64,000 nt of DNA from Chryseobacterium gleum (GTDB lineage: Bacteria; Bacteroidota; Bacteroidia; Flavobacteriales_D; Crocinitomicaceae): contig CAMCWF010000002.1 of assembly GCA_945882095.1 (NCBI GenBank), positions 157,772 through 221,771 of the forward strand, given 5' to 3'. A program made the position numbers and the translations under genes. Below are positions 1 to 64,000 of the stretch, one piece after another. Within the stretch, counting starts at the first letter, position 1; each line of letters starts with the position of its first letter. The notes beneath the pieces are model-generated. The model saw nothing but the letters and a program-made list of their open reading frames with translations. It was not told the DNA's origin and searched no databases.

Positions 1-147
1 GGTTGTAAAAACCGTATCAAAAACCAAGGTGTCTACTGAAAAAGTAAGGTGCTCCTTGGAAAACGCACTGAATTTTTTACAACTGCTGTTAACGAGTAGG
101 GTGGAAAGCAATAAAGCGAAAAGTGAAATTTTGAAATATTTTTTCAT
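1..147 (-). CDS. Partial lipoprotein (N-terminal 49 residues only)
   Basis: Reading the reverse strand from the ATG at 147 gives 49 codons open to the window edge, so the gene is cut by the window and missing from the ORF track. The protein starts MKKYFKISLFALLLSTLLVN, a lysine-led hydrophobic signal, followed by SSCKK, which fits a loose Bacteroidota lipobox. The next residues (TFSVDTLVFDTVFTT) resemble a motif I associate with Bacteroidota surface lipoproteins, just before the mature domain. Function cannot be given because the body of the protein lies outside. The plus-strand ORF at 29-241 is its shadow. Confidence 0.72.
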   Translation of the reverse strand, partial: MKKYFKISLFALLLSTLLVNSSCKKFSAFSKEHLTFSVDTLVFDTVFTT

Positions 148-263
148 CGGCTGGCTAACGTGTAAAGCTAAAGATTATTTAATTAAGGACAATGCGGATG
201 TTTATTCATATTTTAGATATAGAATTGAACCCTTTTCCTAGATGGATGTATACGAGAAAAAAA

Positions 264-1394
264 ATGTTAAAAATGAAAGCACTTATTGGCTTGTTTTTCC
301 TTCTTTCGTTTCAAATCAACGCCCAGCCGCCACAAATTTCGACCAATAATGCCCCACTTAACGGGACCTTTAACCAACTCTTAGAGGTAAATATGGATTC
401 CTTGCAATTCCGTGAGGAAATCAATCCTTCAGATGATGCCAATGAGAAATTGGAAATAAGGAACTTGGAAAAAGATATAAACGACTATAAAACGATTCGA
501 ACGCAAACGAAATCAAATGCCTATGCGCGAAGTCCCTCCGAAGGAGCGCAACGGTTGTTAGATAAAAATGTACAAGAAATACAAACCATTGCGCCTGAAA
601 GCATTGAAGCAGATATTTTATACTACGATGCAGGAAACTACAATGCGGACCGGGCAAGTGCTCTTCAATCATCCCTCGAAAAAGCCGCTGAAAATGAGGA
701 GGCTTTAACCCTTTGGGTTGCGAATTCCTTGGTGGTTGGAGATACTACCGAAGCCTTTGCAACTTTGAAAAAAATGGAGGCGCTTAATTACATTCCGAGG
801 GAGGTATTGTGTTATGCAAAGGACTTGTACGCCTCCGTTCCTAAAAACGCCATACTCATTACCCATGGAAAATGGGATACCTATGGCTTTGTGTATGAAC
901 AAATGTATGGACGCGACAACCAGCAAATACTCAATGTCTCTTTGGATTTACTTCAAAGTCCGCAATATCGAAAATTGCTAAAGCGTAATGGCCTTATGCT
1001 TCCAGAGGGAAAGCGAATTGACGTAGAATACTTCAAGGCACTGTGTGAAATCAATGACGAGAGACAATTTGCATTTTCTATGACCATACCAAAGGAATAC
1101 CTAGTGTCCTTTGCGAAGCAAATGATTCCCAATGGGTTGGTATTTCTCTATCCCTCATCAAATGAAGTCGACCAGGTTGTAGCCAACAATGAAGCTTACC
1201 TCGATTCCTTCTTGTTCATGGATTGCGGTCAAATGGAGAACAATTCCTTGGTAGGTTTGAACGCAAATTATTTACCGATGCTCATGCTTTTGGAACAGCA
1301 ATATGAGAGTGACAAAGGAAGCAATGTTAAATTGACCCAAATCCAAAAACACAGGGAAAAATTAAAAAGAAGGATCGATAAATCTCCGAAATAG
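264..1394 (+). CDS. Secreted protein of unknown function, upstream of ECF sigma factor
   Basis: The ORF opens at 192, but a signal peptide only appears from the ATG at 264 or 273 (MLKMKALIGLFFLLSFQINA, then QPP), so I choose 264, giving 376 residues. The middle part reads like a helical, TPR-like segment (EKAAENEEALTLWVANSLV). It is followed by a stretch, NAILITHGKWDTYGFVYEQM, that resembles the GDNDTYPLWY motif found in the soluble part of DUF2723-type Bacteroidota membrane proteins. No catalytic motif is recognised. The stop is 5 nt before the sigma factor ATG, so the two are probably co-transcribed and the protein may be periplasmic. Confidence 0.75.
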   Translation: MLKMKALIGLFFLLSFQINAQPPQISTNNAPLNGTFNQLLEVNMDSLQFREEINPSDDANEKLEIRNLEKDINDYKTIRTQTKSNAYARSPSEGAQRLLDKNVQEIQTIAPESIEADILYYDAGNYNADRASALQSSLEKAAENEEALTLWVANSLVVGDTTEAFATLKKMEALNYIPREVLCYAKDLYASVPKNAILITHGKWDTYGFVYEQMYGRDNQQILNVSLDLLQSPQYRKLLKRNGLMLPEGKRIDVEYFKALCEINDERQFAFSMTIPKEYLVSFAKQMIPNGLVFLYPSSNEVDQVVANNEAYLDSFLFMDCGQMENNSLVGLNANYLPMLMLLEQQYESDKGSNVKLTQIQKHREKLKRRIDKSPK

Positions 1395-62120: not shown

Positions 62121-62647
62121 TGAAAAACAAAACAATTTTCCTTCCTTTTATGATGCTTGCCGTCATTCTTTGTGCTGCATTTTGCTTCAACCAGAAGGAA
62201 GTATCGTCACCGCCTAAAGGAAAAGCACCCGAAATTAGCTTGGTGTCCCACAAAGGAAAAAAAATAAAACTGTCCAAATTGAAAGGAAAATATGTTCTCA
62301 TTGATTTTTGGGCATCTTGGTGCGGACCCTGTAGAAAGGAAATCCCCAATGTCGTTGAGGCTTATTCAAAATACAAAAACAAAAAATTCATTGAAGGCAA
62401 AGGATTGGTGGTTTTTAGTGTTTCGCTTGATAAAGACGAAGCAGCTTGGAAATCTGCCATTCAATCTGATCATATGAATTGGAGTTACCATGGATTGGAT
62501 GCCGATGGAAAGGCCTCAGAAAGATATGGTGTATTCAGCATCCCAAGTGCTTTTCTTGTCAATGGTAAAGGGGAAATTGTGGCACAAGGTCAAGAACTTC
62601 GAGGATTGAATCTTCACATTACCCTAGATAAATACCTAGCGCCTTAA
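62117..62647 (+). CDS. TlpA-like thiol-disulfide protein
   Basis: The 176-residue protein has an N-terminal signal or anchor (MMKNKTIFLPFMMLAVILCA) and then a thioredoxin domain with the WCGPC active site (FWASWCGPCRKEI) and the cis-proline region FSIPSAFLVNGKG. It belongs to the AhpC/TSA-Redoxin or TlpA family and likely reduces or forms disulfides in the periplasm. It overlaps the murA stop by 4 nt (ATGA) and ends 4 nt inside the convergent nucleoside phosphorylase gene. Confidence 0.93.
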   Translation: MMKNKTIFLPFMMLAVILCAAFCFNQKEVSSPPKGKAPEISLVSHKGKKIKLSKLKGKYVLIDFWASWCGPCRKEIPNVVEAYSKYKNKKFIEGKGLVVFSVSLDKDEAAWKSAIQSDHMNWSYHGLDADGKASERYGVFSIPSAFLVNGKGEIVAQGQELRGLNLHITLDKYLAP

Positions 62648-63510
62648 ATACGGTCCAATACGTATGCGATCAAACCCTGCATATGCTCCTTGTAACCATC
62701 TGAAAATGTTTCTGTAGGACGATTTGCCACACCCAAACAAATGGTTGCGCACTGATGACCTAAGGCCCTTCCTAACGCGAATAACGCAGAACTTTCCATT
62801 TCAAAGTTCAAAAGCCTTAGCGAATTTTCCTCGAAATACTGTGATTTCATTTGGATGTCGGCGATTTTTGTATTGAGTCGCAATTGTCTTCCTTGTGGAC
62901 CGTAGAAACCAGAACTTGTAATCGTAATGCCCGGAAAAGCCCGGTCGCTCGTAAGTAAATAGGTCAATGAAGGGTCTGCAGATACAAAGTATGGGCTGAT
63001 GCGTTCTGGAAGATTTAAAAATGTTTTCAGCTTATCGTTCATAAAAACCTCGTGGTCTAAAAAATCAATGTCGTAGAAATGAGCAACGTTGTCTAAACCA
63101 AAGGCATGAGAAGAAACGATGTAGCTGTGAATGGGTATTTGTGGTTGCAAGATTCCGCAAGTCCCTATGCGTATCAGTTTAAGTTTCTTTTTTTCAGCGA
63201 TTTCAGTACGATTGTGTAAATCAATGTTGACCAAGGCATCGAGTTCATTAACCGTAATGTCGATGTTGTCTGTACCAATTCCTGTTGACAATGCACTGAT
63301 TCTTTTGCCATGATAGATACCTGTGTGGCAAACAAATTCTCTGTGATTGCTTTTATGAGTGATTTCATCAAAAAAATCGGAAATTAAAGATACCCTGTCT
63401 TGATCACCGACCAATAAAATGGTATCCGCAATATCCTCAGGCGACAACCCTAAATGATATACTTGCTGACAAGCATTTAAAGCCAATTCTGTAGGGGGGA
63501 AATGTTTCAA
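62644..63510 (-). CDS. Nucleoside phosphorylase family protein (uridine phosphorylase-like)
   Basis: The 288-residue protein matches the PNP/UDP phosphorylase family: LVGDQDRVSLISDFFDEI near the N-terminus, STGIGTDNIDITVNELDALV (phosphate and ribose binding), RIGTCGILQPQIP and FEMESSALFALGRALGHQCA near the C-terminus. It would split nucleosides with phosphate to base and ribose 1-phosphate; uridine-type is favoured but not certain. It lies 12 nt after the DUF4197 gene on the same strand. Confidence 0.9.
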   Translation of the reverse strand: MKHFPPTELALNACQQVYHLGLSPEDIADTILLVGDQDRVSLISDFFDEITHKSNHREFVCHTGIYHGKRISALSTGIGTDNIDITVNELDALVNIDLHNRTEIAEKKKLKLIRIGTCGILQPQIPIHSYIVSSHAFGLDNVAHFYDIDFLDHEVFMNDKLKTFLNLPERISPYFVSADPSLTYLLTSDRAFPGITITSSGFYGPQGRQLRLNTKIADIQMKSQYFEENSLRLLNFEMESSALFALGRALGHQCATICLGVANRPTETFSDGYKEHMQGLIAYVLDRI

Positions 63511-63522
63511 GTAGAAAGGGGA

Positions 63523-63920
63523 CTATAGACTGCCGAATACTTTGCTTAACAAATCGGTCACCCGAGCAACAGGATCCTTCCGAATTTTATTCTCTTCCTT
63601 TTCAACCATCTTGAAAAGACCTTGAATGGCCAACTCTGTTACATAAGCATCCAAGTCTGGATTGATTTTTTCACCTCCTGACAATGCTGTTACTGTATTG
63701 TATTTGGTAATAATTGGGTTCCAATAGTTTGTAAGTTGCACCTTTGAAGTTGCGGCTTTAACCTTTGGTAAAAAAGCTGTTTTAAGATTGGCGGTAGTGT
63801 TATCCTTCAAAAATTTTGTAGCTGCGCCATCTCCCCCTTTCAAAATTGAAAATCCATCTTGTATGGACATACCCAAAATGGCCTCTTTAAAAATTGGCAA
63901 AGCTTCTTTTACAGCTTCCC
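63523..63920 (-). CDS. Partial DUF4197 family protein (N-terminus lost)
   Basis: The track ORF (125 residues) begins at a TTG inside the gene. Upstream codons continue in frame as GEAVKEALPIFKEAILGM up to about 63920, then the sequence switches to a GC-rich stretch that does not match the family. DUF4197 proteins normally have an N-terminal signal and about 80 more residues. Visible family traits are SILKGGDGAATKFLKDNT, NPDLDAYVTELAIQGLFKM and RKDPVARVTDLLSKVFGSL. The gene is therefore truncated by the junction near 63920, not by a stop codon. Confidence 0.85.
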
Positions 63921-64000
63921 CACGAGGCCGCGGCCGAGTCCGAGCTCGGCGTGGCGTGCTCGGGACAGCTCTCGCACACCGCGCTGCCCGCGGCGGGCTT
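63921..64000. other. GC-rich foreign tail (probable chimeric junction)
   Basis: These 80 bases contain 62 G+C (77.5%), far above the AT-rich remainder. On the plus strand from 63924 they read as an open frame EAAAESELGVACSGQLSHTA (and on) in which 24 of 25 complete codons end in G or C, typical of a high-GC genome. The sequence breaks the DUF4197 gene at about 63920. Assembly or concatenation artefact is the leading explanation. Confidence 0.85.

Follow-up and report, generated by a model that had tools for sequence, protein, structure and literature searches.

Genes and features at the end of contig C2

The window, that is, the whole stretch of DNA that was analysed (64,000 nucleotides), corresponds to positions 157772-221771 of contig C2, and its final base is also the final base of that contig (221771 of 221771). 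The GC-rich tail with which the window closes is therefore a contig end. The draft genome to which C2 belongs comprises 2.35 Mb in 44 contigs and is 96.7% complete with a contamination of 0.01. The features found at this end of C2, together with a gene part on a second contig of 4167 bases (C42), are as follows.

62644..63510, minus strand: gene of the nucleoside phosphorylase superfamily, conserved directly downstream of DUF4197 (PF01048, E 3e-25)
63523..63919, minus strand: DUF4197 gene, C-terminal part, profile positions 75-199 (PF13852, E 2e-42; alignment with relatives)
63917..63919, no strand: TCC (GGA in the sense direction), common to C2 and the start of C42, the true contig junction (comparison with C42)
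63920..64000, no strand: foreign high-GC tail with which C2 closes, 81 bases with 78% G+C (composition break; no other copy in the genome; no convincing database match)
C42 bases 1-332, minus strand: DUF4197 gene, N-terminal part (profile match at C42:3-221; alignment with relatives)

Examination of all 88 contig ends of the genome revealed ten pairs of ends that each have exactly 149 bases in common (C4/C30, C7/C29, C28/C32, C6/C25, C7/C21, C5/C18, C17/C23, C9/C15, C11/C41 and C10/C38), an overlap that we take to be a trace of the assembly graph. Each pair could represent two adjacent contigs or a branching point of that graph. Additionally, the start of C3 and the end of C10 have 43 bases in common.

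Composition of the tail

The 81 bases from 63920 to 64000 contain 77.8% G+C as compared with 41.1% across the window, and recomputation over the last 80 bases returned exactly the 77.5% given in a first-pass annotation of this DNA. A two-segment likelihood split of the final kilobase places the break near 63917, while the first base that departs from the continuation on C42 is 63920, so that the break falls after 63919. Among the 88 contig ends tested, the end of C2 yields a log-likelihood gain of 25.4, the runner-up being a change toward low GC with a gain of 11.8, and a GC-rich tail is present at the end of C2 alone. The first-pass annotation had also described an open frame on the plus strand with GC-rich third codon positions. 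The third positions are indeed GC-rich, with a GC3 of 0.96 in the plus frame. The in-register antisense frame scores the same, however, because the two share their third positions, so GC3 does not tell which strand or frame of the tail might be coding.

A single comparable 81-mer (76.5% G+C) occurs in approximately 0.83 Mb of the genome. It lies on C17 and was rejected as a tail-like sequence, since it encodes a poly-glycine stretch within a giant protein of 4001 aa. The 4001-aa open frame (C17, L042, 7195-19200) contains many glycine-rich stretches as well as repeated similar segments, its poly-glycine stretches locally reach up to 76% G+C, and it probably encodes a giant surface or secreted protein.

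Searches for a source of the tail

The tail is foreign to this genome, which contains no second copy of it. Among 396 genomes of the phylum the sole match was the window itself, with none in the other 395. Searches against phages and plasmids, under both strict and loose limits, gave chance-level matches alone (best E 0.05 among the matches listed). The weak plasmid matches were mostly to Streptomyces, Rhizobium and other GC-rich bacteria, taxa that speak only to the compositional type of the tail. No match to the tail peptide was found in plasmids by tblastn, and neither an exact 29-mer nor a degenerate codon pattern of the tail was found in GTDB genomes. Exact and degenerate scans of viral contigs for the tail were likewise negative. 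No Pfam or NCBIfam match was obtained with the three tail frames, out of six, that were compared (plus 0, minus 0 and minus 2), a weak test at a length of 81 bases, and the final 500 bases of the window gave no Rfam match. Thus, the search for a high-GC source that the first-pass annotation had proposed, carried out here with plasmids, phages and pattern scans of GTDB, provided no convincing match.

The DUF4197 gene is divided between C2 and C42

On the minus strand, the open frame between the end of the window and 63523 matches DUF4197 (PF13852) with an E value of 2e-42 and a score of 145 bits, well above the curated cut-off of 24.9. Of the 199 profile positions the match covers 75-199, and it does not extend past the break, in agreement with the earlier observation that the family match is lost at about 63920. 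A profile search of the genome for DUF4197 found two pieces, one comprising positions 75-199 at C2:221303-221689 and the other comprising positions 2-74 on the minus strand at C42:3-221 (E 7e-19, 70 bits). The missing N-terminus, for which a search of the assembly had been suggested, is therefore present right at the beginning of C42, where it supplies precisely the residues that C2 lacks and stands in a conserved gene order. When C42 and C2 are overlapped by the shared GGA (sense), the join is in frame and reads NKAAEEAVKEALPIF, as compared with NRAAEEAVKEALPIF in the nearest relatives; the alignment with relatives is alike column for column, with zero residues missing or doubled.

Gene order is in accord with this join. 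In members of the same genus the order is a large, putatively gliding/T9SS-like protein, DUF4197 and the nucleoside phosphorylase, with the phosphorylase beside DUF4197 in 18 of 19 loci from relatives and the large protein beside it in 14 of 19. The draft genome carries the large-protein gene on C42 (901 aa), where its product has a putative C-terminal end of the gliding/T9SS type. Two complementary DUF4197 pieces and a conserved gene order therefore make C2 and C42 neighbours and the tail foreign to their junction; as judged from sequence, there is no place for the tail between them.

The part of the gene closest to the junction on C42 is unusual. Within the last 11 codons of C42, three of eight near-invariant columns are altered relative to relatives, whereas none of 20 such columns is altered before these codons and none of six after the junction (one-sided Fisher p ~0.009 for 3/8 versus 0/26, computed by hand). 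One of the alterations is an in-frame TAG at C42 (L025) 27-29, where relatives have a glutamate codon, and two more odd residues are close by. These oddities are likely to be errors of a contig end with few or poor reads, and both contig ends, that of C2 and that of C42, look poorly supported. Decay of the DUF4197 gene is a possible alternative.

Another reading is that the tail marks a genuine insertion or the boundary of a transfer. A very GC-rich element would recently have entered DUF4197 in part of the population, between what are now C2 and C42, with TCC as the target duplication and with a drop in coverage within the insert, of which only 81 bases would have been assembled. The stop codon and two other odd residues on C42 are what a decaying gene might show, and the two flanks join precisely at a repeat of 3 bases. 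However, a 3-base match arises by chance once in 64, and any overlap of one to three bases would have drawn notice. Furthermore, C42 starts exactly at the flank with zero bases of an insert, even though reads straddling the far boundary should leave some; mobile-element sequence at both flanks was accordingly not found, the start of C42 being without a foreign base. The tail is also 81 bases long rather than the 149-base overlap that shared repeats leave in this assembly, it has no second copy in the genome and no match to known plasmid or phage elements, the three tail frames and the final 500 bases contain no recognisable mobile-element gene or known RNA, and DUF4197 is intact at the same place in relatives. 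We consider such an insertion highly improbable.

Probable origin of the tail as an assembly artefact

The tail is in all probability an assembly artefact, most likely caused by a chimeric read or by a wrong extension at a point no longer covered by genuine reads. An assembly join or a contaminating high-GC read was also the explanation put forward in the first-pass annotation, and it is supported by the location of the N-terminus at the start of C42 and by the conserved gene order. The true end of C2 would be at about 63919, inside DUF4197, with C42 as its true continuation. We infer that coverage was low at this spot, where the assembler would have added 81 bases to C2 that came from either a chimeric library molecule or a wrong local extension, events that may have fused the genome with DNA from a GC-rich organism that was sampled together with it.

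The overlap between C2 and C42 is 3 bases, as compared with 149 at the ten other pairs, and the true junction is therefore missing from the final graph, in keeping with such an origin. One observation fits less well with a chimeric read. Once trimmed, C2 and C42 meet to within 3 bases, a closeness seldom expected of a coverage gap placed at random. The abutment would be better explained by a cutting step performed on one sequence at the break, or by physical breakage of the DNA that was sampled. A less favoured possibility, to which we assign a small but appreciable probability, is accordingly that the artefact arose at a later stage. C2 and C42 may once have been parts of one sequence or scaffold, with the tail as wrong filler between them, and a subsequent split or trim, such as screening for contamination or errors might impose, would have left C42 with a clean start and C2 with 81 bases of filler. 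This would account for the near-perfect abutment without a 149-base graph overlap, but the sequence examined shows no sign of such processing elsewhere, and weak read support at the end of C42 is suggested by its odd codons. Whether by chimeric extension, which we prefer, or by a later cut, the tail is an artefact either way.

We therefore regard the tail of C2 as an ordinary assembly artefact and not as a real feature or a matter of biology. Its significance is for data hygiene alone: the 81 tail bases call for masking, C42 can be set next to C2, and the terminal gene call of C2 (158 aa, with a foreign N-terminus) is a false fusion. The tail should not be taken as horizontal transfer.

Comparison with known systems

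Metagenome assemblies are known to contain, if rarely, sequences that wrongly combine two organisms (PMC7111523). The end of C2 resembles the chimeric contigs and local errors described for metagenome-assembled genomes in that two genomes are joined where the true continuation is missing, and in the abrupt change of composition inside a gene (PMC7111523). It differs from these in that the foreign part is merely 81 bases at a contig end, for which coverage and phylogenetic profile on the far side are not assessable. The change occurs close to the contig end (break at 63919, end at 64000), and the true continuation is present elsewhere in the assembly. With regard to DUF4197 (PF13852), the gene on C2 is an ordinary member of the family, its C-terminal part being 67-82% identical to same-genus relatives. 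The genes of those relatives are intact, with open frames of 241-275 aa save for copies cut by contig ends. Unlike such intact members, the gene described here is spread over two contigs and has one in-frame TAG near the end of C42.
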